Of a stretch of DNA of 64,000 bases, positions 24,659 to 50,377 are shown piece by piece. Source of the DNA: Pseudomonadota bacterium. GTDB taxonomy: Bacteria > Pseudomonadota > Gammaproteobacteria > QQUJ01. Under the pieces are notes generated by a model. That model saw only the letters and a list, made by a program, of their open reading frames with translations, had not been told where the DNA came from and searched no databases. Location of the stretch: contig QQUJ01000029.1 in NCBI GenBank assembly GCA_008501635.1, forward strand, positions 62,001-126,000, in the 5' to 3' direction. The position numbers and the translations under genes are program-made. How positions within the stretch are numbered: position 1 is the first letter of the stretch; each line of letters begins with the position of its first letter.

Positions 24659-24859
24659 ATGCAACTCAAACCCGAACCTGGACGACCGCTAACCAGCCTG
24701 GTACTGGTCTTTTTGTTCGGGCTCATGATGTACGCCACGCCCTTTCTCACATGGTGGGCGGTCGAAGACAGCCCGTGGTACCTCCCGTATCTCATCTGGT
24801 TGGTGATCATCGTATTGGTGGCGATAGCGCAGCTGCGCCGAGGGAGCGATGACATTTGA
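24659..24859 (+). CDS. cbrX: CbrX-like small membrane protein
   Basis: A 66-residue protein with two hydrophobic helices (about residues 11-29, SLVLVFLFGLMMYATPFLTW; and 39-56, LPYLIWLVIIVLVAIAQL) and a basic end RRGSDDI. It overlaps the start of the sensor kinase by 11 bp, so translation is probably coupled. Pseudomonas cbrX is a small gene overlapping cbrA that couples its translation; position, size and overlap match. I chose ATG 24659 over 24629 because GGTGAG precedes it. It resembles in layout the small protein at 40486-40725. Confidence 0.7.
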   Translation: MQLKPEPGRPLTSLVLVFLFGLMMYATPFLTWWAVEDSPWYLPYLIWLVIIVLVAIAQLRRGSDDI

Positions 24860-27839
24860 TATCGGGCAACTCTTCCTGGCGGTTGTCGCCTATCTGGCGC
24901 TGCTGTTTCTGATCGCTTACGCGGTTGATCGCGGCTGGATCTCAAGCCGGGTCGCCCGCCACCCGCTGACCTATGTACTATCGCTGGGCGTCTACGCCAC
25001 CTCGTGGTCTTACTACGGCAGCGTGGGATTCGCCCAGGCCCAGGGCTACAATTTCCTGACCATCTATCTGGGCGTGACGCTTGCCTTCGTACTGACGCCT
25101 TTCTTGTTGCAGCCCATCCTGCGCCTGACCCGGGATTACCAGCTCAGCTCACTCGCAGACCTGTTCGCCTTTCGTTTTCGCAGCCAGGCTGCCGGTGTAC
25201 TCGTCACTCTGTTCATGCTCGCAGGAACCCTGCCCTATATCGCGCTGCAGATCCGCGCCGTCACCGAATCGCTGCGCATTCTGACCAAAGAGTCTGCGAC
25301 GGGTGAACTTGCGCTGGGTTTTTGTCTGATCCTCACCGCTTTTGCCATCCTCTTTGGCGCACGGCATATATCACCCCGTGACAAACACGAGGGCCTGGTG
25401 GTGGCCATCGCGTTTGAATCGCTGTTCAAGCTTCTCGCGTTAATGGTGGTGGGTTTGTTCGCGGTCTTCGGGGTATTTGGCGGTTTTGACCAGCTGAACC
25501 TCTGGCTGGCCGAGAATCCCGAAGCGCTGGAGGCTTTGTACGAACCTGTAAAGAATGGACCCTGGTCCACCTTCATGGTGCTCTCGTTCGCTGCCGCGTT
25601 TCTGCTGCCGCGCCAGTTTCATATGGCGTTCGCCGAGAACATCGACGAGCGCACGCTGCCGATCGCCAGCTGGGGCTTACCCTTCTATCTGCTGCTGCTC
25701 AACCTGGCGATCCCGGTCGTGCTGTGGGCTGGAACCGCCCTGGGGCAACCCACCGAACCTGACTACTACGTACTCGGTATCACCCTGAGCAGCGGAAGCG
25801 CTCTGCTGCCCACCATGGCTTTTCTTGGGGGGGTTTCCGCCGCCAGCGCGATGATGATCGTCACCACACTCGCCCTGGCCGCTATGTGTCTCAACCACCT
25901 GCTGCTCCCGGCGAGCTATCCCGATCCCAAGCTCGACATCTACCGCTGGTTGCTATGGGGCCGGCGCGTGCTGATCGCCGTCATCATCTTTACCGGTTAC
26001 TTCTTTTCGCTGCTTCTGGAGAAACACCAGGGCCTGGTGCAACTGGGCCTGATCTCCTTTGTGGCGGTGGCTCAGTTCCTTCCCGGGGTTGTCGGCCTGC
26101 TCTACTGGCCGCGCGCAACCGCCTGGGGCTTCATCGCCGGTCTGCTGGGGGGTGGATTGGTGTGGGCCGTTACCTTGCTGTTCCCGTTGCTTCAGAGCAG
26201 TGGATTCCTGACCTATGACTTCGATGCGCAGACGCTGATGACGGCCGCCGGTCAGGACAAATGGACCTTCGCCACTTTCTGGTCGTTGCTGGTCAATGGC
26301 GTGTTGTTTCTTGGCGTGTCACTGATCACCCGCCCTTCGCGCGAGGAGCAGGATGCCGCCAACGCCTGCTGCCGCCATATCCTTGTCCCGGCCAGCGGCG
26401 CCCTCACCGCCTTCTCTCCCGACCAGTACCGCGAACAGCTTTCCCGCTACATGGGCGACGTGGCCGCCAACAAGGAGGTGACGCAGGCATTGCGTGATCT
26501 GGAGATGGGTAATGAGGAGCGCCGGCCCGCCCAGCTGCGTCGTCTACGGGACAAGATCGAACGCAACCTCTCCGGGCTCGTGGGTCCCCAGATGGCACGG
26601 ATGTTCGTGGAAAATCCCATCAAGATGAGCAGCCGCGCCCAAAGCGCTCTGGCCGACGGGATGCGGTTCATTGAAGAGCGCGTCGAGGAGTCGCGCATCG
26701 AACTGCAGGGTCTGGCGGCCGAGCTCGATGCACTCCGCCGCTATCATCGTCAGATTCTGCAGGACCTGCCGCTTGGCGTCTGCTCCCTGGGTCCCAGCCA
26801 GGAGATCGTGGTCTGGAACCTGGCGATGGAACTGCTCTCGGGGATCGAGCGCAACGAGGTGCTGGCCACACCCATCCAGGAACTGCCGCCTCCCTGGGGG
26901 CGGCTGTTCAGCGATTTCATCCGCACCAAAGATCGCCACCTCCACAAACAACGCATCACGCTGGAGGGTCGTACCCGATGGCTGAACCTGCATAAGGCGG
27001 CCATTGAGGCCCCGCAAAACCGCTACCGCAATGGCCGCGATACAACCGATCGTAGCGGTCTGGTGCTGCTGGTGGAGGATCTCACCGACCTGCAACTGCT
27101 GGAAGACGAGCTGATGCATAGCGAGCGCCTGGCCTCTATCGGGCGCCTGGCGGCCGGCGTGGCGCACGAAATCGGCAATCCGGTCACCGGGATCGCCTGC
27201 CTCGCACAAAACCTGCGCGATGAGACCGAGTCCGAACAGACCAGAGACCATGTGACGCGCATCCTGGAACAGACCCAACGCATCGGCGACATCGTCCACT
27301 CGCTGGTCTCATTCAGTCACGGCGGTATGCCCGATGGCTCGACCAGCACCCGCTTCGACCTGCGCGATTGTATCGACGAAGCCGTCCGCCTGGTGCGCCT
27401 GAGCCACGCCGGCAAGCTGGCGGAATTACAAAACAACTGCACACAGGGGTTTGAGATCCTTGGTGATCGCCAGCGCTTGATTCAGGTGTTCGTCAATCTG
27501 CTCACCAACGCCTGTGACGCCTCCGCACCCGGCGATCGTGTCACTCTCGAAGCACACCGCGAGGAAGATTGGCTGCGTATCGAGATCACCGACCAGGGAT
27601 GCGGTATACCGCTGGAGTTGCAGGAGCAGATCTTCGAGCCGTTCTTTACCACCAAGGAACCCGGCAAGGGCACCGGACTGGGCTTGCCGCTGGTCTACAG
27701 CATCCTGCAAGACCACGACGGCACCATTCACATCGACAGCGAACCCGGACGTGGCTCCTGCTTCATCATTCGCTTGCCCGCGGGCAGTGTGACAATCCAC
27801 CCCTCACTGAACAGCCAGGACGGAGCGACCATCCCATGA
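24849..27839 (+). CDS. cbrA: CbrA-type sensor histidine kinase with sodium/solute symporter domain
   Basis: A 996-residue sensor. Residues 1-about 500 form an SSS-family transporter-like domain with about 13 membrane helices ([20 protein letters not shown] at the start). A STAC-like linker ([20 protein letters not shown]) and a PAS-like region (about 640-740) follow. The HisKA H-box [18 protein letters not shown] has phospho-acceptor H773, and the HATPase boxes are [17 protein letters not shown] and [13 protein letters not shown]. Pseudomonas CbrA has the same build, length (983) and neighbours (dksA, gluQ, cbrB), where it controls carbon/nitrogen use. Its stop overlaps the regulator gene (ATGA). 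The ligand is unknown; whether it transports is uncertain. Confidence 0.88.
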
Positions 27840-29179
27840 ATCGGATCCTCATCGTCGAGGACGAAAAAGTCATACGCCAGGCACTGCTGCGTCTCCTGGA
27901 GCGCAACGGTTATGAAGTGGCCGATGCCGGTTCGGTGGCCGAGGCAGTCGAGAACCACGACCTGACCTCTTTCGATCTCGTCATCGCCGACCTGCGCCTG
28001 CCGGGGACGCCGGGCACCGATATCATCGCCCACTGCGAGAACACACCGGTAGTCATCATGACCAGCTACGCCAGCGTGCGCTCCGCCGTGGACTCGATGC
28101 AATTGGGTGCCGCCGACTATATCGCCAAACCCTTTGATCACGATGAGATGCTGCTGTTGGTGGAGCGTCTGCTGCAGCAGAATCGAATGGCACGCCAGAA
28201 TATCGCACTGAAAAGCGATCTCGAGCGCAATTACCCGGTCTCCGGTCTGGTAGGCGAATGCCCGCCCATGAAAGAGGTTTTCAACCGCATCAGTAAAGTC
28301 GCGCCAACCGATACCACAGTGCTTATTTTGGGTGAATCGGGTACCGGCAAAGAGCTGGTAGCTCGCGCCCTGCACGAAACCAGCCCCCGCAAGGACGGCC
28401 CCATCATCACCGTCAATTGCGCTGCCATCCCAGAAAGTCTGATCGAGTCGGAGCTCTTCGGCCACGAGAAAGGCGCTTTTACCGGTGCCGTAGGCATCCG
28501 GCACGGCCTGGTAGAGGCGGCCGACGGGGGTACGTTGTTCCTCGACGAGATCGGCGAGTTGCCGCTGACCGCGCAGGGCCGTTTGCTGCGCGTACTGCAG
28601 GAGGGAGAGATCCGGCGTATCGGCTCACCACACGAGCGCAAGGTCGATGTAAGGTTGGTCGCCGCCACGCATCGCGATCTTCAACAGCAGGTGAAGACCG
28701 GCGAGTTTCGCGAAGACCTCTATTTTCGCCTGCGTGTCATGGAGATTCACCTGCCGCCGTTGCGCGAGCGCGGCGAAGACGTGGCTCAGCTTGCAGAATT
28801 CCTCTTAGAGAAGAGCTGCCGCCGTTTGAATCGGGCTCCGTTGCAGTTTACACCCGCCTCCATGGAGACCCTGCTCAAGTACCCCTGGCCGGGTAATGTG
28901 CGGGAGATGGAGAACGCGATCGAGCGCGCCGTCATCCTCTCCGATGGCCACAGCATCACTCCCGAGATGCTCTCGATCGAGCCCGCCCGGCTCCCCGATA
29001 AAAACGCCGAGGTGTCCCCAAGTACAGACCTTGATCTTTCCCTGGAAGACTATTTCCGCCGTTTCGTCCTCGAACACCAGGATGAACTCACCGAGACCGC
29101 ACTCGCCAAACGTCTTGGGATTAGCCGCAAAGCACTTTGGGAAAAGCGGCAGCGCCTGGGAATCCCGCGGAGAAAATAG
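27836..29179 (+). CDS. cbrB: CbrB-type sigma-54-dependent response regulator
   Basis: A 447-residue NtrC-family activator. The receiver domain has D52 as phospho-acceptor (DLVIADLRLPG) and the KPF lysine near residue 101. The AAA+ domain carries Walker A GESGTGKE, the sigma-54 contact loop GAFTGA and DGGTLFLDEIGELP. A C-terminal Fis-type helix-turn-helix is LAKRLGISRKALWEKRQRLG. It partners the overlapping CbrA-type kinase. In Pseudomonas CbrB activates the sRNA gene crcZ directly downstream; here a 402-bp non-coding gap and an acetate symporter follow. The frame is open upstream to 27569, but ATG 27836 gives the family start. Confidence 0.9.
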   Translation: MNRILIVEDEKVIRQALLRLLERNGYEVADAGSVAEAVENHDLTSFDLVIADLRLPGTPGTDIIAHCENTPVVIMTSYASVRSAVDSMQLGAADYIAKPFDHDEMLLLVERLLQQNRMARQNIALKSDLERNYPVSGLVGECPPMKEVFNRISKVAPTDTTVLILGESGTGKELVARALHETSPRKDGPIITVNCAAIPESLIESELFGHEKGAFTGAVGIRHGLVEAADGGTLFLDEIGELPLTAQGRLLRVLQEGEIRRIGSPHERKVDVRLVAATHRDLQQQVKTGEFREDLYFRLRVMEIHLPPLRERGEDVAQLAEFLLEKSCRRLNRAPLQFTPASMETLLKYPWPGNVREMENAIERAVILSDGHSITPEMLSIEPARLPDKNAEVSPSTDLDLSLEDYFRRFVLEHQDELTETALAKRLGISRKALWEKRQRLGIPRRK

Positions 29180-29581
29180 CAGCCGACCCGACCCCGGCAT
29201 CTCCCTGAAAACGGCGGTTTGGAGAACTTGATCTGCAGGCCAAAGGGGCCATTGCCAGGCAAACTCGCATCGGAAAAGTGTTACCTATGTTACTTTACGT
29301 TACTTTTATTTGTTTCATTTCGTTACATTTTTAGCTTCTCTTGACATCTTTTACATTAATTAACCATTCTATCTCATTGATTATTAGTTATTTAACTTTT
29401 CTGCATATTTTTTGCTTGCACTTTGCGCCAAGGGATGATTTGACCACAACAAAATGCTATGGAGGGCAATCACGAGGAGGAGGAATAAATCAACATCGGC
29501 TAAATCAGCAGCTGTTCGCAAATAACAATGATCGGCGTTTCATCTCTGCATTATTACTTCAATAAATAAGGAGGAAGGTCG
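29180..29581 (+). other. AT-rich 402-bp non-coding leader before symporter genes
   Basis: No supported gene. The stretch is strikingly AT-rich compared with its neighbours (29280-29440). It holds four GTTAC units at 29280, 29289, 29299 and 29322, spaced 9, 10 and 23 bp. A TTGACA occurs at 29341 without a good -10 at normal spacing. One AANAANAA sequence (AATAACAA, 29521-29528), the type bound by Hfq/Crc in Pseudomonas, lies upstream of the symporter start. A strong SD (AGGAGG, 29569-29574) ends it. I found no sigma-54 consensus and no strong cbrB terminator by eye. Confidence 0.6.
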
Positions 29582-29848
29582 GTGAATTCAGAAACTACTG
29601 CTATGAGGGAGGCCCACTGGAATCGGACGCGAAACCTGATGATTATTCATTTGAGCATCTGGTTTGTTTTCGCGTATCTGGTCCATTGGTTTGCACCCCA
29701 ACTCAACGAAATCAGGTTCATGCACTTTCCCTTGGGATACTACATGGCGGCCCAGGGTTCCCTGTTCGCGTTCGTCATCCAACTGTTCATCTTCGTGAAA
29801 CAGCAGGACAAGGTCGATCGCGAATGCGGTATGGCTGAAGAAGACTAA
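29582..29848 (+). CDS. DUF4212 sodium/substrate symporter small subunit
   Basis: An 88-residue protein with two membrane helices (about residues 22-40, LMIIHLSIWFVFAYLVHWF; and 58-76, AAQGSLFAFVIQLFIFVK) and a charged C-terminus KQQDKVDRECGMAEED. This is the DUF4212 pattern of small partners encoded directly before SSS-family acetate-type symporters. The start is GTG at 29582, with AGGAGG seven bases upstream; an ATG at residue 8 is weaker. It lies 15 bp before the symporter gene. Confidence 0.9.
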   Translation: MNSETTAMREAHWNRTRNLMIIHLSIWFVFAYLVHWFAPQLNEIRFMHFPLGYYMAAQGSLFAFVIQLFIFVKQQDKVDRECGMAEED

Positions 29849-29863
29849 GGGGGGGGCGCACAA

Positions 29864-31702
29864 ATGAGCTTTTTCAGAATGCAAGGGGACTTCATCACCA
29901 ACCTCCCCAAGATCTACGGCTTCTATACCGGGGGCTTCATAGTCTTCATCCTGCTGATGGCAGTGCTGGAGCAGATGGGATTGGGTGCCGACACCATCGG
30001 CATACTCTTTGTGGCTTTCACAATTCTCATCTACGCCCTCATCGGGTGGCTGTCGCGAACCATGCAGATCGACGCGTACTACGTCGCCGGCCGACAGGTG
30101 CCGCCGGTGTTCAACGGTATGGCGACCGCTGCGGACTGGATGTCCGGTGCTTCATTCGTGGCCATGGCCGGCGGCATCTACATGGGCGGTCACTCCTACC
30201 TCGCCTTCGTGGTCGGCTGGACCGGCGGCTACGTGCTGGTCGCGGTGCTGATGGCGCCGTACCTGCGCAAGTTCGGCTGCTACACGGTGCCGGACTTCAT
30301 CGGTACCCGTTATGGCGGCAACACGGCACGCTTGCTTGCGGTGGTGGTGCTGGTCATCGCATCGTTCACCTATGTGACGGCGCAGATCAACGCTACAGGG
30401 ACTATCGCCTCGCGCGCGCTGGGCGTTCCGTTCGAGGTGGGTGTCTGGTTCGGGCTGGTGGGAATCCTGATCTGCTCGATGCTGGGCGGCATGCGCGCGG
30501 TGACCTGGACCCAGGTGGCGCAGTACATCGTGCTTATCATCGCCTATCTGGTTCCGGTTATCTGGATGTCGAACAAGCAGGGCTTCGGCGTGATTCCGCA
30601 GTTCGTCTACGGTGACGCGGTGGCCCGCATCCAGGAACTGGAGCCAATGCTCGGGGTGGGTACGCTGAAACCGGTCGCGGGTGCCGCAACCGGCTTCCCG
30701 GGTCTCGTGGCGCTGACCAACCTGCACGCCGAACCCGGTGGTGGGCTGGCAGCCTGGAAGTTCGTGACCCTGGTGGCATGCATGATGCTCGGTACGGCAT
30801 CGCTGCCGCACATCCTGATGCGCTACTTCACCACGCCTTCCGTGCGTGCAGCGCGTGTCTCGGTGGCCTGGTCGCTGTTCTTCATCACCCTGCTCTACTT
30901 CACCGCACCCGCGCTAGCTACCTTCACCAAACTGCAGGTGCTGGATCCCACCCTGGCGACCAGCATCATCGGCAAGGCGATAGCGGATGTGAATGCACTG
31001 GAGTGGATCCAGAAGTGGGCAGCGGTCGGAATGTTGGGCATCAACGACGCCAATGGCGACGGCTTGCTGCAGATCAACGAGTTCTTCATGCGCGGCGACA
31101 TCGTCGTGCTGGCGACACCCGAGATTGCCGGCCTGCCTTACGTCATCTCCGGCCTGGTCGCCGCCGGCGGCCTGGCCGCGGCCATGTCCACGGCCGACGG
31201 CCTGCTGCTCGCCATCGCCAATGCCCTGTCCCACGATCTGTACTACAAGATCATCGATCCCAAGGCGGAGACCAGAAAGCGGTTGATCGTCGCCCGCGTC
31301 CTGCTGCTCGGAATCGGTGCGGCGGGCGCTGCGGTGGCCAGCTTGAAGCTGACCGGTATCCTCGGTGCGGTGGCCTGGGCCTTCGACTTCGCCATGTCGG
31401 GTCTGTTCTTCCCGCTGGTGCTTGGGGTCTGGTGGAAACGGGCCAACCGGCCGGGGGCCATCGCCGGTATGGCGCTGGGTCTTGCTGCAGGGACCTGGTA
31501 CCTCTACATGGTCCGCTTCGCCGGCATGGAACCGTGGATCGGTATCGATCACCTGCGCTTCGGCATCATCGGTGCCTCGGTGAGTCTGGTGGCCATGGTG
31601 GTGGTTTCGTTGATGACCGCAGAGCCTGACAAGGAGACACAGGCGATGGTCGACGAGATCCGCATCCCCAGAGGTGAGACGATCGTCGGTTCGCACCATT
31701 AA
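29864..31702 (+). CDS. Sodium:solute symporter, acetate/ActP-like (VC_2705 subfamily)
   Basis: A 612-residue SSS-family permease with about 13 transmembrane helices. Typical sequences are VAGRQVPPVFNGMATAADWM and ASFVAMAGGIYMGGHSYLAF near the N-terminus, GLAAAMSTADGLLLAIANAL in the sodium-binding region, and LSHDLYYKIIDP. The family takes up acetate and similar short carboxylates with sodium. The DUF4212 gene before it and acs 4 kb downstream support acetate as substrate, but pyruvate or propionate cannot be excluded. An SD of GGGGGG precedes the ATG. It ends at a strong terminator. Confidence 0.9.
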   Translation: MSFFRMQGDFITNLPKIYGFYTGGFIVFILLMAVLEQMGLGADTIGILFVAFTILIYALIGWLSRTMQIDAYYVAGRQVPPVFNGMATAADWMSGASFVAMAGGIYMGGHSYLAFVVGWTGGYVLVAVLMAPYLRKFGCYTVPDFIGTRYGGNTARLLAVVVLVIASFTYVTAQINATGTIASRALGVPFEVGVWFGLVGILICSMLGGMRAVTWTQVAQYIVLIIAYLVPVIWMSNKQGFGVIPQFVYGDAVARIQELEPMLGVGTLKPVAGAATGFPGLVALTNLHAEPGGGLAAWKFVTLVACMMLGTASLPHILMRYFTTPSVRAARVSVAWSLFFITLLYFTAPALATFTKLQVLDPTLATSIIGKAIADVNALEWIQKWAAVGMLGINDANGDGLLQINEFFMRGDIVVLATPEIAGLPYVISGLVAAGGLAAAMSTADGLLLAIANALSHDLYYKIIDPKAETRKRLIVARVLLLGIGAAGAAVASLKLTGILGAVAWAFDFAMSGLFFPLVLGVWWKRANRPGAIAGMALGLAAGTWYLYMVRFAGMEPWIGIDHLRFGIIGASVSLVAMVVVSLMTAEPDKETQAMVDEIRIPRGETIVGSHH

Positions 31703-31727
31703 TAACAACTAGTCTGTGTTGTCTTGA

Positions 31728-31761
31728 GCCGGGGCGAGGTCTACTCGCCCCGGCTTATTTT
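31728..31761 (+). terminator. Intrinsic terminator of the symporter operon
   Basis: A perfect 11-bp stem GCCGGGGCGAG / CTCGCCCCGGC with loop GTCTA, followed by TTATTTT, 25 bp after the symporter stop. It separates the DUF4212-symporter unit from the following small membrane gene. Confidence 0.92.
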
Positions 31762-31808: not shown

Positions 31809-32165
31809 ATGACAGAGGTATTTCCACTGTGGGTACTGGTATTCGATTACCTCATGGGCATGATTATGTGGACGCTGATCGGTCGTTTCGGCATGCGTCT
31901 GTTTCTTCCTGAAGAGAGCAAATTCTTCTTCATGCGATTCTTCGTGCGGGTGACCGATCCACTGCTGAAACTGTTCGCACCCATTACGCCCGCGTTCTTG
32001 ATCCCTCAGATGATTCCGCTCTATGTGGCTTGGTTCTTCTTCATGATTCGCTTCTACCTGATGCCCTGGCTGCTCGGTTATTCAGTCATGGGCATGCTGT
32101 CATTCCCCCTCGAGAGTGAAATAGCGCAAGGCGTCAATCACTTGCTCGGGTTGATCCTCAAATAG
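31809..32165 (+). CDS. Small membrane protein, YggT-like
   Basis: A 118-residue hydrophobic protein, unnamed. Three helices are likely: about 7-28, 58-86 and 87-115. The middle stretch FFVRVTDPLLKLFAPITP resembles the YggT-family motif (ITDPLL followed by a proline-rich turn), and IGRFGMRLF before it fits too; the match is by eye. It has its own leader after the symporter terminator and an AACCGGGGGGCTC stretch before the ATG that can act as SD. It lies 10 bp before the CBS-DUF294 gene, so the two are probably co-transcribed. Function unknown. Confidence 0.6.
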   Translation: MTEVFPLWVLVFDYLMGMIMWTLIGRFGMRLFLPEESKFFFMRFFVRVTDPLLKLFAPITPAFLIPQMIPLYVAWFFFMIRFYLMPWLLGYSVMGMLSFPLESEIAQGVNHLLGLILK

Positions 32166-32175
32166 CCTCACTGCC

Positions 32176-34269
32176 ATGGCGGGCCGCATACCTCCTCCAA
32201 GCCAGGCACCGCTGATCACGCTGCCGACGCTGATCCTGGCGGTAGAGACCAGCGATTCCAACGCAGAGCGCGGCCGCATCCTTCAAGTGAGCGCCGTTGC
32301 CATGAAGGGCGGCGCCCAACTCGATCAGCCGCGATTCAGCCATCGATTTAAACCCGGGATACCCCTCTCGCCGCAAGCAGACGACACCTCGACAACAGAT
32401 AGTGCCGACTTCGCCGAGGTCGCCAAAACACTGCGGGAGCTATTCGTGGGGCGGATCGTCGTCGGCCATACGATCGCGGCCGATCTGGCCGCGCTGTGCG
32501 CAGCAGCCGCGCAGGCGGGAATCCCATGGCGCGATCCACCGGCGCTCGATATTGCGCACCTGACGGGAATATTGGATCCGGCATTGCCGAATCCAGGTCT
32601 GAAATCACTGGCTGAACGTCTGGGCGTCACCATCGATCACAACGATCCACTGCTGGGCGAGTGTCTGGCCATCGGTAAAATCTGGGGCAAACTGCTAGCC
32701 TTGCTGCGCGAAGCGGATATCCGAACGCTGGGTGAGGCGCAGTCCTTCGCCGAACATCGCGTCGAGTCCGTCAGCCGCGATGCGGAAGCGGGCTGGTACG
32801 ATGGCAAGGTGCAGGCCGCGCCCAGCAACGTGCCCCTACCGGTAACACACATCGACAGTTACGCATTCCAGCGTCGACTGAGTGACCTGATGAGCGCACC
32901 GCCGATCATGACCGGTGCCGACACTCCGCTGCGCGAGGTGGCACGCACACTATGCAGGGAGCGCATCGGCGCGCTGCTTATCGGCGACCCCAGTGCACCG
33001 CCCCAGGGTATAGTCACCGAGCGTGATCTCCTGCAAGTCACCGCCACCGGAACTCAGGATCTCGACACCGTCACCGCTGCCGAGATCATGAATACACCGG
33101 TCGAGTCCATGGCGGGCAATGAAATGCTCTATCGTGCACTCGGGCGTATGGACCGCCTGGACATACGCCATCTCTGCATCGTCGATAGTACCGGCAACGC
33201 AGTCGGTATGATCTCTCAACGCAACCTGCTGCAGCACCGGGCACGCAGCGCCGACATGCTGGGTGATGAAATCACAATGGCGGAAGACGCAGAGGCTTTA
33301 GCGACCGCCTATGCGCGGGTTCCGGAGATCGCATCACGCCTGGTCGACGAAGGTTTGGACGGTCTGACAGTCGCGCGTTTCATCTCCAGCGAGTTGCGTG
33401 CGCTCACTGCGCGAGCCTCTGAAATAGCCGCTGGTGAGTTGGCGGCGGAAGGCCTGGGAACAGCGCCAGCACCGTGGTGCCTGCTCGTCCTGGGGTCCGG
33501 CGGACGCGGTGAAAGTCTGCTGGGTGCTGATCAGGACAATGCATTGATCCACACTGGTTCACCCGACGACGATGATTGGTTTGCCCGGTTTGGTGCCAAG
33601 CTGGCCGACCGACTCGATACCGCCGGCGTACCGCGCTGCAAAGGCGAAGTCATGGTTGTTACACCCCGTTGGCGAGGCACCGCTGAGGAGTGGTTGACGC
33701 GGGTGGAAAGCTGGTTACGGCGAGCCCGTCCCGAAGATCAACTCAACGTCGACATCTTCTTCGATCTGATCCCGGTGGCGGGCGATGCGCGGCAGGCGCG
33801 CGAACTCCACGCCCATGCCGTGCGCAATGCATCCACCAATCTGCCCTTCATCGGCCTGCTCGCAGAATCAGTCAATGCCGTGACACCGCGACTGGGTATG
33901 CTGGGGAGCCTGCCCACGGATCAGGGACGGATCGACCTCAAGCGCGATGGCCTGCTGCCGCTGGTCAGCCTGGCCAGAACCCTGGCCCTGCGGGCCGCCT
34001 CCACCGCGCGCTCGACGCCCGAGAGGCTGCGCGATGCAGTGGCAGCGGGACGTCTTCCGGAGGGCGATGCGGCAGCGCTGATCGAGCTGCATGTCGAACT
34101 GCTTACCTTGGTACTGCAACAGCAGCTCGTCGATCTCGAAGCAGGGCGAGCGCCGTCCAGCCGAGTGGAACTGAAAGCCCTGAGCCGGCAGCAGCGCTCG
34201 AGCCTGAAACACCGACTCAAACACCTCGACACGGTAGTAAGAGAACTTCGCAGCGCGATCGCAGGTTAA
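32176..34269 (+). CDS. Exonuclease-fold / CBS pair / DUF294 nucleotidyltransferase-like fusion
   Basis: A 697-residue multidomain protein. Residues about 15-180 resemble a DnaQ/RNase T exonuclease domain (ILAVETSD, VVGHTIAADLAAL, LKSLAERLGV). However, the first catalytic Asp is Ala22, the catalytic His position is Asp157 and the last Asp is Glu162, so nuclease activity is doubtful. Two CBS domains follow (about 230-290 and 298-356), then a DUF294 nucleotidyltransferase-like domain with GSGGRGESLLGADQDNALIH (about 441-460) and its helical C-terminal domain. In Pseudomonas and Vibrio, separate exonuclease and CBS-DUF294 genes sit beside ActP-like symporters; here they are joined. CBS pairs usually bind adenine nucleotides, suggesting an energy-sensing regulator. 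Confidence 0.82.
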   Translation: MAGRIPPPSQAPLITLPTLILAVETSDSNAERGRILQVSAVAMKGGAQLDQPRFSHRFKPGIPLSPQADDTSTTDSADFAEVAKTLRELFVGRIVVGHTIAADLAALCAAAAQAGIPWRDPPALDIAHLTGILDPALPNPGLKSLAERLGVTIDHNDPLLGECLAIGKIWGKLLALLREADIRTLGEAQSFAEHRVESVSRDAEAGWYDGKVQAAPSNVPLPVTHIDSYAFQRRLSDLMSAPPIMTGADTPLREVARTLCRERIGALLIGDPSAPPQGIVTERDLLQVTATGTQDLDTVTAAEIMNTPVESMAGNEMLYRALGRMDRLDIRHLCIVDSTGNAVGMISQRNLLQHRARSADMLGDEITMAEDAEALATAYARVPEIASRLVDEGLDGLTVARFISSELRALTARASEIAAGELAAEGLGTAPAPWCLLVLGSGGRGESLLGADQDNALIHTGSPDDDDWFARFGAKLADRLDTAGVPRCKGEVMVVTPRWRGTAEEWLTRVESWLRRARPEDQLNVDIFFDLIPVAGDARQARELHAHAVRNASTNLPFIGLLAESVNAVTPRLGMLGSLPTDQGRIDLKRDGLLPLVSLARTLALRAASTARSTPERLRDAVAAGRLPEGDAAALIELHVELLTLVLQQQLVDLEAGRAPSSRVELKALSRQQRSSLKHRLKHLDTVVRELRSAIAG

Positions 34270-34955
34270 TCTTCTGAACTCAAAACGGCCCCTGCATCGA
34301 GGTCACGGCGCAGATCGCGACGGATCTCCTGCCAGCGGAAGCGGACCGAGTTCTTGACGATCGGCTCGTCGAGTTGTTTCAGCTCATCGATGACGGGTGC
34401 CCAACGCACCAGCGCCACCGGACTCTCGGAAAACGCTGTTTCATCATCGGTAATCTGCGTCCAATCGCACTGCGCGACACGGCCAAGCACACGCTCGGCG
34501 TGCGCTGCAAACTCCTCGTCGGCATCTGCGGGGGAACCAGCGGCCGTAACGACCTCTTCGACCAATTCCCGAATAAGATTCTCCACCTCACCTATCGACG
34601 CCGATGTGCGCTGGACCAGCAAGCCTCCAGCGTAGACAGCCAGATCCGAGACACAGGCAAGCCAAATATGCCACTTGGCGATGTTGATCGACCTGACGAA
34701 CACATCATCGTCAAACAGTTCGGGATAGCGCATACCCGTGCGTGTGCGCAAGTAGCCATACAGCGAAGTTTGTGCGACAAAACTCGCGCGCGTCTCCAGA
34801 AACTGCCGTAGGCGGATACGGTTGTCGACGGGTTCGCGGCGGCGTCGGCGGCCCAGGCCGATGTACTCCCGCACCAGCCCCCACAACTCCGCAGGCTTGC
34901 CCCACTCCCCGATACGTCGATTCAGATCGTTACTCACAGAATCCAGAACACCCAT
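34266..34955 (-). CDS. Conserved-looking hypothetical protein
   Basis: A 229-residue soluble, charged protein I do not recognise. Its features are a basic patch IGLGRRRRREPVDNRIRLRQ (about 33-52), an aromatic core SLYGYLRTRTGMRYPELFDDDVF, and an acidic helical C-terminal half with EVENLIRELVEEVVTAAG. No signal peptide or membrane helix is evident, and base composition matches the neighbours. Its stop overlaps that of the convergent CBS-DUF294 gene by four bases. Its place between that gene and acs suggests a link to acetate metabolism, by position only. Confidence 0.6.
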   Translation of the reverse strand: MGVLDSVSNDLNRRIGEWGKPAELWGLVREYIGLGRRRRREPVDNRIRLRQFLETRASFVAQTSLYGYLRTRTGMRYPELFDDDVFVRSINIAKWHIWLACVSDLAVYAGGLLVQRTSASIGEVENLIRELVEEVVTAAGSPADADEEFAAHAERVLGRVAQCDWTQITDDETAFSESPVALVRWAPVIDELKQLDEPIVKNSVRFRWQEIRRDLRRDLDAGAVLSSED

Positions 34956-35612: not shown

Positions 35613-37550
35613 ATGTCCGAAGTACACGTCTATGACGTCCCGGCGGAATTCGCCGCTAAAGCCCATATCAACGAGGCCTTGTACGATTCAATGTACAAGC
35701 GCTCGGTCGAAGATCCGGAGGGATTCTGGGCGGAACAGGCCGAAAAATTCATCACCTGGTTCAAGCCCTGGGACAAGGTCACCGAACATAATTATGACAA
35801 AGGCCATATCCGCTGGTTCGAAGGCGCCAAACTAAATGCGTCGTTCAACTGCCTGGACCGCCATCTTGAAACCCGTGGCGACCAGGTCGCCATCATCTGG
35901 GAAGGTGACGACCCGGCCGACGACAAGAAGATCACCTACCGCGAGCTGCACGCAGAGGTTTGTAAATTCGCCAATGTGCTGAAGAAGCGCGGCGTCAAGA
36001 AGGGCGACCGCGTCTCGATCTACATGCCGATGATTCCGGAAGTCGCGGTGGCAATGCTCGCCTGCACACGGGTTGGCGCGGTCCATTCCATCGTCTTCGG
36101 GGGGTTCTCACCGGAATCGCTTAAAGACCGTATCCTGGATTCCGACTGCCGCGTGGTCATCACTGCAGACGAAGGCCTGCGCGGTGGCAAAAAGGTACCG
36201 CTAAAAGTCAATGCCGACAAAGCGTTGCTCGAATGCCCGAATGTACATTCCGTCATAGTGGTCAAACGCACCGGCAGCGACATTTCCTGGAACAGTGATC
36301 GCGATATCTGGTACCACGAGATCATGGCAGATGCGTCGACCGACTGCCCCGCCGAAGAGATGGATGCCGAGGATCCGTTGTTCATCCTCTACACCTCCGG
36401 ATCCACTGGGATGCCCAAGGGTGTGTTGCACAGCACCGGCGGCTACCTGCTCTTTACCGCCATGACCCACAAATACATCTTCGATTATCACGATGGCGAC
36501 ATCTACTGGTGTACCGCCGACGCGGGCTGGGTCACGGGTCACTCCTACATCATTTACGGCCCTCTCGCCAACGGCGCCACCACCTTGATGTTTGAAGGTG
36601 TTCCCAACTATCCAAGCCACTCCCGCTTTTGGGATGTGGTGGACAAACACAAGGTCAATATCCTCTACACCGCACCCACCGCTATCCGTGCACTGATGGG
36701 TCAGGGTAACGATTTTGTCACCAAGACGTCACGCAAGACCCTGAAACTGCTGGGCACCGTCGGTGAACCGATCAATCCCGAGGCCTGGGAGTGGTACTAC
36801 AACGTGGTCGGCGATAAGCGCTGCCCGATTGTCGATACCTGGTGGCAGACCGAAACCGGTGGCATCCTGATTTCACCGCTGCCGGGATGCACCAAACTGA
36901 AACCGGGCTCTGCCACGCGACCCTTCTTCGGTGTCGTTCCCGATATCGTCGACACCGATGGCAACGTGCTGGAGGGTGCCGCTTCCGGCAACCTGGTCAT
37001 CAACCGCCCATGGCCGGGGCAGATGCGTACCGTGTACGGCGATCATCAGCGCTTCATCGATACCTACTTCAAGACCTACCCGGGCAAGTATTTCACTGGC
37101 GATGGCGCGCGCCGTGATGAGGACGGTTACTACTGGATCACCGGTCGTGTCGATGATGTCATCAACGTCTCGGGACACCGCATGGGTACAGCCGAGGTGG
37201 AAAGTGCACTGGTACTGCACGAGAGCGTCGCCGAAGCCGCCGTGGTGGGTTATCCCCACAATATCAAAGGTCAGGGCATCTATGCCTACGTCACACTGAT
37301 GACGGGTGTCGAGCCCAGCGATGCGTTGAAGAAAGAACTGGTAGGTCTGGTGCGCAGCGAGATCGGACCGATTGCATCACCCGATGTCATTCAGTGGGCG
37401 CCGGGGCTGCCGAAAACCCGCTCGGGTAAGATCATGCGCCGCATCCTGCGTAAGATCGCGGCCAATGAAATCGATGCCCTGGGCGATACCACCACGCTGG
37501 CAGATCCTTCGGTGGTGTCGAACCTCATAGATAACCGTGCGGTGAAGTAA
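35613..37550 (+). CDS. acs: Acetyl-coenzyme A synthetase
   Basis: A 645-residue AMP-forming enzyme that turns acetate, ATP and CoA into acetyl-CoA. The adenylate-forming motif [14 protein letters not shown] is at about residues 264-277. WWQTETGG gives the acetate-pocket Trp and AMP site, and [18 protein letters not shown] is the hinge region. The C-terminal [17 protein letters not shown] contains the catalytic lysine acetylated by Pat-type enzymes. Length is close to E. coli Acs (652). It lies between the symporter/CBS-DUF294 genes and a second SSS-sensor kinase. Confidence 0.97.
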
Positions 37551-37729: not shown

Positions 37730-40483
37730 TCAGTCGGTCTGCTTTCGCTCCGCTTGCAATCGCATCGCCTGACTCAGCGGCAATGTAAACGCGAAGGTCG
37801 AACCCTTGCCGATCTCGCTTTCCGCCCAGATAGTACCTCCGTGATGTTGAATGATTCGGCGACATATCGGAAGACCCAATCCGGTTCCCCGCGGCTTACC
37901 ATCCTGTGCGTCGCTGACCTGGTGGAATTTCTCGAAAATACGCTCTAGTTCTCCAGGTGCAATACCCACACCATTGTCGTTCACGGCAACGGTCACCGTG
38001 TCATGGTCACTCAAAACCCGTACTTCAATTCTCCCTGTTCCCGAATCGCAAAACTTTGCAGCGTTGGATACCAGATTGATTACCACCTGTATGAGACGAT
38101 CTTTGTCGACAACTACGTTTACGGCACCCGCCGGCACATCCTTGACGAGTTCGATACCAAGGTCTGAAATAATCTGCCGCGTAGCAATCAACGCGTCGTT
38201 TACGATTTCGCGCAGATCGACTACTTTCATATGCCATTCGACGTGACCCGATTCGATTTTTGCCAGATCCAGGACCTCATTGATCAGTCGTGTCAAACGT
38301 TCGCTTTCCTTGACGATGACATCGAGAAATTCTTGACGTTGCTCCCGCGACATATCCGGACTATCACGCAGAATTTCCGAAAAAGCGCGAATTGAAGTAA
38401 GTGGTGTTCGCAACTCATGACTCACCGTAGAGACAAAATCATCCTTTAAACGATCCAACTCCTGCAACTGTTCGTTGGCTGCTTTCAGCTCGCGGGTAGC
38501 CGCTTCCAGCTCACGCGATTTCAATTCGAGACGCCGACTGTACTCGATGACCTGGGTGGTTTCGTCGAGTATCTTCATCACCCCTTCGATGCTCAACTCT
38601 TCTCCCTTGACCACCGATCCCATCATCACGTGTGCTGACGCCGCGCCGATCGCACCGGCAAGTTGTCTTTCAGCGTACTCAACCAGCACGCCCTCCGCGT
38701 GATCTTCACCAAGCAGTACTTTTCCACGCGATGCCGCAAACCTATCGAATACTGCTTGCGCTCTATCAGGTCCGATAAAGCGCCTTAATAGATCGCGCAC
38801 TTCCGCAATGGTCGCAGTGCTCTCCCAGATGCGCGAATCCCGCGCTTCGGTGCCCTGTTTGAATACATCGACAAAAAGGGTGGCTTGAATTCGTTCTATG
38901 GGGCTTTCGCGCGCAAATAACGACACCCCAACCAATAAGCCGATGTTGATCAACATGCTCCAGAAGACAGCATGAGTAATAGAGTCGAACTCCCCGAGTC
39001 CGAACAATGCATAGGGTTTTAACCAGCTCCAACCCAACAACCCCTCCTCGAGAAAGGCGATGGGCAACCAGCCCGAAAGCGCAAATCCTGGTAATACCAG
39101 CGTATATATCCAAATGATAAATCCGCCAACCAGACCCGCAATGGCACCAGCGCGCTTGGCCCCTTTCCAGTAAATACCGATCAAAATTGCAGGTGCGAAC
39201 TGCGCTGCCGCAACAAAAGAGACTAGTCCGATACTTACCAGGGTGTAGGATTCGCCTATCAGGTGAAAATAGAGGTATCCAAGCAACAGCACAAAAATGA
39301 TGGCGCCCCGCCGGATCGTCAGCAGAAGACTTGTCAGGTTTTCGCGATACAACAAACCGAAACGAAACAGAATCGGCATTATCAGATCATTGCAAACCAT
39401 GGTGGCGATCGCGACGGTCGCCATAATAACCATACCCGTTGCTGCCGAAAGACCACCAGTGAAGGCAAACAACGCCAGCCACTCCGCATTGTTTGCCAGA
39501 GGAATCGTCAGCATGAAGGTGTCGGGATCAATCGCCCCATCAGGAAAGAAAATCAATCCGGCAATCGCAAGCGGCAGAACAAAGATGTTAATGACCAACA
39601 GATACAGGGGAAACAGCCAGCTGGCTTTGCGAATGTGATCTTCGTTCACATTCTCTACCACCAACACCTGAAACTGGCGGGGGAGAAACATGATCGCCAT
39701 CATGGAAAGGAAGGTCAGTGACAACCAGCTGGAATAACCTCCTGGCATGGAATCGAAACTGAATAGCTTGGCGATATCCGGAATTGCGCTCGCTTGTGCA
39801 AATAGATCGGTGGGCCCCTGGAAGAGAATAAAGGTGACAAACAAACCCACTGTTAGAAACGCCAGCAGTTTCACCACTGACTCAAAAGCGATCGCCGCCA
39901 CCATGCCCTCGTGTCGTTCGGTGGCATCGATGTGCCGGGTTCCGAACAATATGGTAAAGAGGGCCATGGCCAGAGCCACATATAAAGCGGTATCGCCTAC
40001 CAACTGCCATTGCGGTGTCGGACCACCCACCACATTGGAGGTTCGCAACAAAACGTCGCTCAATGCCACTGCTTTCAATTGGAGAGAGATATACGGCATG
40101 ATGCCGATAACGGCGATCACGGTAACCAGCCCCCCGACCAATCCACTCTTGCCATACCGTGAACCAATAAAATCGGCAATGGATGTGATACGGTGCACCT
40201 TGCTGATACGTACAATCTTGCGCAGCACATACCACCACAAGCATGCCATCAGCGTCGGACCCAGATAGATGGGAAGAAATCCGACACCCGAACCAGCCGC
40301 GCGCCCCACACTGCCGTAAAATGTCCAGGCAGTGCAATAGACGGCAATCGAAAGGGTATAGATATACGGGTTACTGATGATCGAGCGCCCGCGATCGGCA
40401 CGTAGATCGGCATAGAAGGCGATGGCAAACAACAAACCCACATAACCGAACGCGGTCAGGAGTATCGCCCAATCAGTGAGCAC
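37730..40483 (-). CDS. SSS-domain sensor histidine kinase (CrbS/MxtR/CbrA-like)
   Basis: A 917-residue sensor. The N-terminal about 500 residues form an SSS-family domain (VYCTAWTFYGSVGRAAGSGV, then about 13 helices). A STAC-like linker follows (VRDLLRRFIGPDRAQAVFDR), then a coiled coil (RRLELKSRELEAATRELKAA). The HisKA box DDFVSTVSHELRTPLTSIRA has phospho-acceptor H689; the HATPase boxes are INLVSNAAKFCDS, DNGVGIAPGE and GTGLGLPICRRII. CrbS/MxtR kinases of Vibrio and Pseudomonas share the SSS build and control acs, and this gene is next to acs. It lacks the C-terminal receiver domain those kinases often carry. It starts 2 bp after a small membrane gene. Confidence 0.88.
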   Translation of the reverse strand: MLTDWAILLTAFGYVGLLFAIAFYADLRADRGRSIISNPYIYTLSIAVYCTAWTFYGSVGRAAGSGVGFLPIYLGPTLMACLWWYVLRKIVRISKVHRITSIADFIGSRYGKSGLVGGLVTVIAVIGIMPYISLQLKAVALSDVLLRTSNVVGGPTPQWQLVGDTALYVALAMALFTILFGTRHIDATERHEGMVAAIAFESVVKLLAFLTVGLFVTFILFQGPTDLFAQASAIPDIAKLFSFDSMPGGYSSWLSLTFLSMMAIMFLPRQFQVLVVENVNEDHIRKASWLFPLYLLVINIFVLPLAIAGLIFFPDGAIDPDTFMLTIPLANNAEWLALFAFTGGLSAATGMVIMATVAIATMVCNDLIMPILFRFGLLYRENLTSLLLTIRRGAIIFVLLLGYLYFHLIGESYTLVSIGLVSFVAAAQFAPAILIGIYWKGAKRAGAIAGLVGGFIIWIYTLVLPGFALSGWLPIAFLEEGLLGWSWLKPYALFGLGEFDSITHAVFWSMLINIGLLVGVSLFARESPIERIQATLFVDVFKQGTEARDSRIWESTATIAEVRDLLRRFIGPDRAQAVFDRFAASRGKVLLGEDHAEGVLVEYAERQLAGAIGAASAHVMMGSVVKGEELSIEGVMKILDETTQVIEYSRRLELKSRELEAATRELKAANEQLQELDRLKDDFVSTVSHELRTPLTSIRAFSEILRDSPDMSREQRQEFLDVIVKESERLTRLINEVLDLAKIESGHVEWHMKVVDLREIVNDALIATRQIISDLGIELVKDVPAGAVNVVVDKDRLIQVVINLVSNAAKFCDSGTGRIEVRVLSDHDTVTVAVNDNGVGIAPGELERIFEKFHQVSDAQDGKPRGTGLGLPICRRIIQHHGGTIWAESEIGKGSTFAFTLPLSQAMRLQAERKQTD

Positions 40484-50300: not shown

Positions 50301-50377
<77 letters not shown>

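Follow-up and report, generated by a model that had tools for sequence, protein, structure and literature searches.

A candidate pseudo-exonuclease within a widespread family of fused exonuclease-CBS-DUF294 proteins

Introduction

The gene at positions 32176-34269 (forward strand) of the window, the whole stretch of 64,000 nucleotides analysed here, raises the question of what becomes of a two-part enzyme when one part appears to have lost its catalytic residues. Its product joins an exonuclease-like domain to a CBS pair and a DUF294 nucleotidyltransferase. At issue are whether the exonuclease half is still active, whether its decay came before or after the fusion, and what the protein as a whole may still do.

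Domain architecture of the fused protein

The open reading frame contains no internal stops and specifies 697 residues (stop included), a layout drawn from the frame itself, Pfam and the orthologues. An N-terminal DEDDh-like domain of the DnaQ/RNase T type, its catalytic residues lost, occupies residues 1-212 (32176-32811) and is followed on the same strand by the CBS pair (about residues 240-355; 32893-33240), the DUF294 nucleotidyltransferase domain (residues 381-520; 33316-33735) and DUF294_C, a putative substrate-binding domain (residues 558-687; 33847-34236). This order of domains in a single chain of about 700 residues, together with the linker motif IDS(F/Y), is the architecture of the family. 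Pfam recognizes DUF294 (1.4e-35), DUF294_C (6.8e-29) and two CBS stretches (2.3e-15) above the cut-off. The proposal of an earlier note on this DNA that a fused DEDDh-CBS-DUF294 protein is encoded beside an ActP-like symporter is supported. The RNase_T match of the window protein is sub-threshold, scoring 15.3 bits where 24 are required; RNase_T is matched by all 37 full-length family members, the best at 5e-31 and the window protein at 0.03. Membership of the domain in the DEDDh fold (DnaQ/RNase T, PF00929) is nevertheless indicated by a tree of exonuclease domains and by orthology to intact fused proteins, and a fold search with the domain returned matches to PolC exo, DnaQ and RNase T.

The nucleotidyltransferase part retains its motif, which reads G440-S441-x-G443-R444-x-E446...D452-Q-D454-N455, in which G440, S441, G443, R444, E446, D452 and D454 are invariant across 37 sequences, the window protein included. 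By its GS(x)GR(x)E...DxD motif the DUF294 part is assigned to the Pol-beta-type, GlnD/GlnE-like nucleotidyltransferases. The DUF294_C domain has itself been grouped with domains found at the C-terminus of polymerase-beta proteins of the GlnD/GlnE type (PMC3710099).

Loss of the catalytic site

Alignment with intact fused orthologues places A22-E24-D103-D157-E162 at the five DEDDh positions, where DEDHD is expected, so that the metal site of four acids and a histidine is absent. More specifically, the Exo I motif is AVE (residues 22-24; 32239-32247) in place of DxE, the Exo II acid D103 is kept (32482-32484), and in the Exo III motif (32644-32661) the histidine has become D157 and the aspartate E162. 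The earlier reading of the sequence, that only E24 and D103 survive, is thus borne out by the orthologues. The losses extend beyond the metal ligands: a 6-residue in-frame deletion takes out most of the conserved AIHGI loop of the orthologues, within a substrate-loop region (residues 67-77; 32374-32406) that forms a helix in the intact model, and the family residues T26, G27, L28, D29, P65, R156 and A159 are also changed.

These changes do not carry equal weight. In all 18 of 18 unfused gammaproteobacterial exonucleases encoded beside DUF294 genes the Exo II aspartate is a glutamate, and D162E alone is therefore no proof of loss; because E162 is conservative and the same exchange occurs naturally at another metal ligand in this related group, it is A22 and D157 that are decisive. 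Alanine at the first aspartate or at the histidine inactivates the oligoribonuclease Orn (D12A, H158A; PMC6613908), and the activity of MrfB is lowered by D107A and H258A (PMC10889028). From this we infer that the window protein has lost its exonuclease activity.

An exonuclease still active through a rearranged site, with for example H155 as the base and D157, E162, E24 and D103 as metal ligands, is improbable. H155 does lie two residues ahead of the lost histidine, and the glutamates of the unfused actP-linked group show that an Asp-to-Glu change at one ligand is tolerated. However, no acidic stand-in for A22 is found nearby on the strand, the model helix begins at residue 158 so that H155 would have to shift two residues within a loop, and the whole domain appears to be under relaxed constraint.

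Structure prediction had been put forward as a check in the earlier note. AlphaFold retains the general fold of the window protein (mean pLDDT 86, pTM 0.85), but two short helices at residues 66-79 of the model of the intact relative L089 are absent, and the mean pLDDT of the exonuclease domain is about 84 against 93 in L089, the remainder being about 90 in both. The two proteins were modelled from the same sequence set, and the domain values (residues 11-200) were averaged by hand from block values. The metal site was judged by alignment and predicted secondary structure.

Distribution of the catalytic site among fused orthologues

In the survey, which covered 73 loci for fused orthologues in Gammaproteobacteria and Alphaproteobacteria, DEDHD is kept in 73 of 73, and AEDDE is found in the window protein only. 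The 73 loci (41 + 5 + 27, a few probably representing the same species from two collections) were gathered by whole-genome searches and by an alignment-based scan of named genomes; a single-sequence scan of genome contigs gave no matches, whereas the alignment query did find orthologues. The gammaproteobacterial members include L006/L035, L007, L008, L036-L055, L089-L091, L095, L096, L099, L100 and others, and the alphaproteobacterial members come from Mesorhizobium, Bradyrhizobium, Hyphomicrobiaceae and others. Architecture and length are shared with the Burkholderiales MAG protein L089 (CP070753.1; 53% identity) and with L006 (50%), and both recur in Mesorhizobium (L098) and Bradyrhizobium (L106-L110); all of these, unlike the window protein, keep the intact site.

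The distribution thus shows that the fusion is old and widespread, being common in Proteobacteria, and that the loss is specific to the window lineage. The source genome is the sole genome of its order, and the variant is known from this one genome. Fusion followed by decay, as had been proposed from the sequence, is the right order of events for the window lineage, but fusion does not generally lead to decay, since 73 relatives remain intact.

Two further observations concern the wider family. In L111 (Rhodospirillaceae R-7), L102 (Hyphomicrobiales MAG) and L103 (Mesorhizobium prunaredense) the fused gene is seemingly split over two frames, through frameshift or sequencing error, with the exonuclease motifs intact. 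A different architecture occurs in several genomes (L063:1-2094, L064-L079, L180-L203), where proteins of about 700 residues carry a C-terminal RNase_T-type exonuclease behind an N-terminal part that is kinase-like in appearance, with membrane helices and a PAS-like region; DEDHD is present in all copies checked.

Rate and timing of the decay

Among 37 full-length proteins placed in one tree, the window protein, L035 and L089 are mutually nearest sequences. With the topology fixed, the terminal branch of the window protein is 1.20 for the exonuclease domain and 0.33 for CBS-DUF294, a ratio of 3.6. Over the whole tree this ratio is 1.07, and the runner-up among the terminal branches reaches 1.67. 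Private substitutions, counted at columns identical in L035 and L089, are likewise concentrated in the exonuclease domain (44 of 106 columns, against 32 of 236 in the remainder; Fisher p = 3.8e-8), and the same test on the sisters L035 and L089 reveals no such bias (p = 1.0 and 0.75). Among columns conserved at 90% or above, the window protein is changed at 20 of 45 in the exonuclease domain and at 12 of 108 elsewhere.

A second tree, built from exonuclease domains only and including unfused and sensor-type exonucleases, joins the window protein to L035, L089 and L008 with a support of 100, in a clade that falls within the fused group, itself supported at 91. Its position there argues that fusion came first and that the domain decayed in place. 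An exchange of the exonuclease domain was considered and rejected on the same ground, as the tree keeps the window protein among its fused relatives. A sequencing or assembly error, or replacement of the N-terminal domain by an unrelated one, would account for a variant present in a single genome only, yet such an artefact is highly implausible: the many changes are in frame and without frameshift, the codon-position GC of the exonuclease part is like that of the remainder of the gene, and the grouping with L035, L089 and L008 is fully supported.

The strong decay of one half might also be taken as the leading edge of a whole gene becoming a pseudogene. This is very unlikely, since the reading frame is complete, the nucleotidyltransferase motif is intact, the gene neighbours are conserved, and the CBS-DUF294 terminal branch is the shortest among the closest relatives (0.33, against 0.54 and 0.35).

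A more serious alternative is that catalysis was lost while the domain was kept to bind a nucleotide, the end of an RNA or DNA, or a partner, and so to control the DUF294 nucleotidyltransferase. The domain is in frame and of full length, its predicted fold is largely kept, and 12 of 18 changed hydrophobic core positions are still hydrophobic where about 8.4 would be expected from the genetic code (p = 0.07), a result suggestive of some remaining structural constraint. A precedent has been proposed in DinG-like helicases with a pseudo-exonuclease domain (pExoDinG; PMC11981726), which resemble the window protein as fused multi-domain bacterial proteins whose exonuclease domain is without catalytic residues, but differ in being DEDDy-like, in forming a whole subgroup and in being fused to a helicase. 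Against such a new role, the substitutions are scattered throughout the domain, where they have accumulated 3.6 times as fast as in the remainder, the loop deletion and the losses neighbouring Exo I and Exo III remove the known binding face, and only a single sequence carries the variant. Because the domain-wide rise in rate and the loss of the loop and binding face fit relaxed constraint better, a remnant is preferred, and repurposing is regarded as rather unlikely. A particular form of it, in which the former exonuclease would be a non-catalytic sensor gating the nucleotidyltransferase, so that in the window lineage a one-way enzyme controlled by a ligand replaces two opposed activities, 'nucleotide on' and 'nucleotide off', is unlikely. 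A similar case of a pseudo-exonuclease domain is provided by Taq DNA polymerase I, whose 3'-5' exonuclease domain is vestigial.

The actP neighbourhood

The fused gene is the third of a row. An ActP-like sodium:solute symporter (29864-31702, forward strand) is followed by a 118-residue membrane protein with a weak YGGT match (31809-32165, forward strand), whose gene lies upstream of the fused one at a distance of 10 bases. The same order is found in G093 and in L089, the Burkholderiales MAG, and also in L170; as in the window, the nearest fused relatives have ActP and the 118-residue gene adjacent. The ActP proteins are 83% and the 118-residue proteins 77% identical between the window and G093, and the latter are 77% identical in L170 and L089 as well.

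Between the ActP and 118-residue genes lies a strong terminator-like hairpin (31725-31757; 14 pairs, then TTTTCGTTAT), and the downstream gene pair may therefore depend on read-through. On the opposite strand a 229-residue protein (34266-34955), without a Pfam match above the cut-off, is convergent with the fused gene and overlaps its end; relatives of it are encoded close to the fused gene in L170 (59%), L097, L098, L104 and L106. The actP region is flanked by two histidine kinases (24849-29179 and 37730-40483), each with a long membrane region at its N-terminus, that of the second being symporter-like by Pfam; after the first comes a sigma-54-type response regulator, and both of these lie upstream of actP. 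A scan for sigma-54 patterns gave 34 matches against 35.4 expected, no better than chance, with none upstream of actP in 29180-29863. The acs gene is at 35613-37550, and the sole Rfam match in the window at the gathering threshold is a tRNA gene on the reverse strand (50304-50377).

A second actP operon in the same genome

A second DUF294 operon (G000:C10; L169:6750-11173) combines an ActP-like symporter, a 622-residue cNMP-CBS-DUF294 protein and a separate exonuclease of the RNase_T type (231 residues; L169:6750-7445) with the site D-E-E-H-D. The components are shared with the window system; unlike the fused protein of the window, the exonuclease stands alone and the DUF294 protein has a cNMP_binding domain. 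This exonuclease belongs to the DEEDh variant, with Glu at Exo II, seen in unfused exonucleases beside cNMP/CBS-DUF294 genes (L009-L034).

It is plausible that the intact exonuclease of the second operon could cover the function lost from the window protein. As a sufficient cause this is weakened by the distribution of the two systems: among 22 genomes that carry the fused gene, only 3 (G000, G294 and G298) have a cNMP-type protein as well, and in G294 and G298, where both systems are present, the fused exonuclease site is intact. Redundancy is thus a plausible permissive condition rather than a sufficient cause.

Relation to known systems

The unfused exonuclease and CBS-DUF294 pairs mentioned in the earlier note do exist, both at the second locus of this genome and in Pseudomonas, where a study of P. 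putida places PP_0354 (CBS protein) and PP_0353 (putative RNase_T exonuclease) under MxtR/ErdR (CrbS/CrbR) control (PMC9927547). In that study growth on pyruvate is impaired when PP_0353 is lost, and likewise when actP-I is lost. In P. fluorescens, nucleotidylation was predicted for the cAMP/CBS/nucleotidyltransferase protein Pflu5625 and no phenotype was found (PMC5715377). These proteins and the window protein share an exonuclease and CBS/nucleotidyltransferase module linked with actP and the use of carboxylates, and the window locus has the actP linkage of the PP_0353/PP_0354-type module. They differ in that PP_0353 and PP_0354 are separate genes, against one fused protein with a different catalytic state in the window, and in that the Pflu5625-type protein has a cNMP-binding domain in the position taken by the exonuclease in the fused protein. 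A full-text literature search combining DUF294, exonuclease and acetate gave no paper, and the literature found names no substrate for DUF294 nucleotidyltransferases linked to actP and exonucleases.

Conclusions

The sequence shows that catalytic residues were lost, in a single domain and a single lineage, that the nucleotidyltransferase motif stayed intact, and how the gene is placed among its neighbours. The family to which the protein belongs joins a DEDDh 3'-5' exonuclease domain to a GlnD/GlnE-like nucleotidyltransferase gated by CBS, and its genes stand with those of ActP-like symporters. In the window lineage catalysis would have been lost as the metal-bridging Asp became Ala, the general-base His became Asp, the last metal Asp became Glu and the substrate loop was partly deleted. 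The exonuclease half is probably now a catalytically lost but folded remnant under relaxed constraint, beside a CBS-DUF294 part under normal selection in an old fused family. The protein may still act as a CBS-regulated nucleotidyltransferase, and the exonuclease step may have become dispensable, perhaps being supplied in trans by the unfused exonuclease of the second actP operon.

Comparative analysis thus bears out and sharpens the original observation: within a fused family of wide distribution, the window protein is a lineage-specific variant with a predicted pseudo-exonuclease. As a clear natural 'half-dead' enzyme it could help to show what each half does: with one half off and the other maintained, the functions are separated, which suggests that the nucleotidyltransferase is useful without its own exonuclease. 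Set against L006 and L089, it offers a ready-made comparison for finding the substrate of the DUF294 nucleotidyltransferase.
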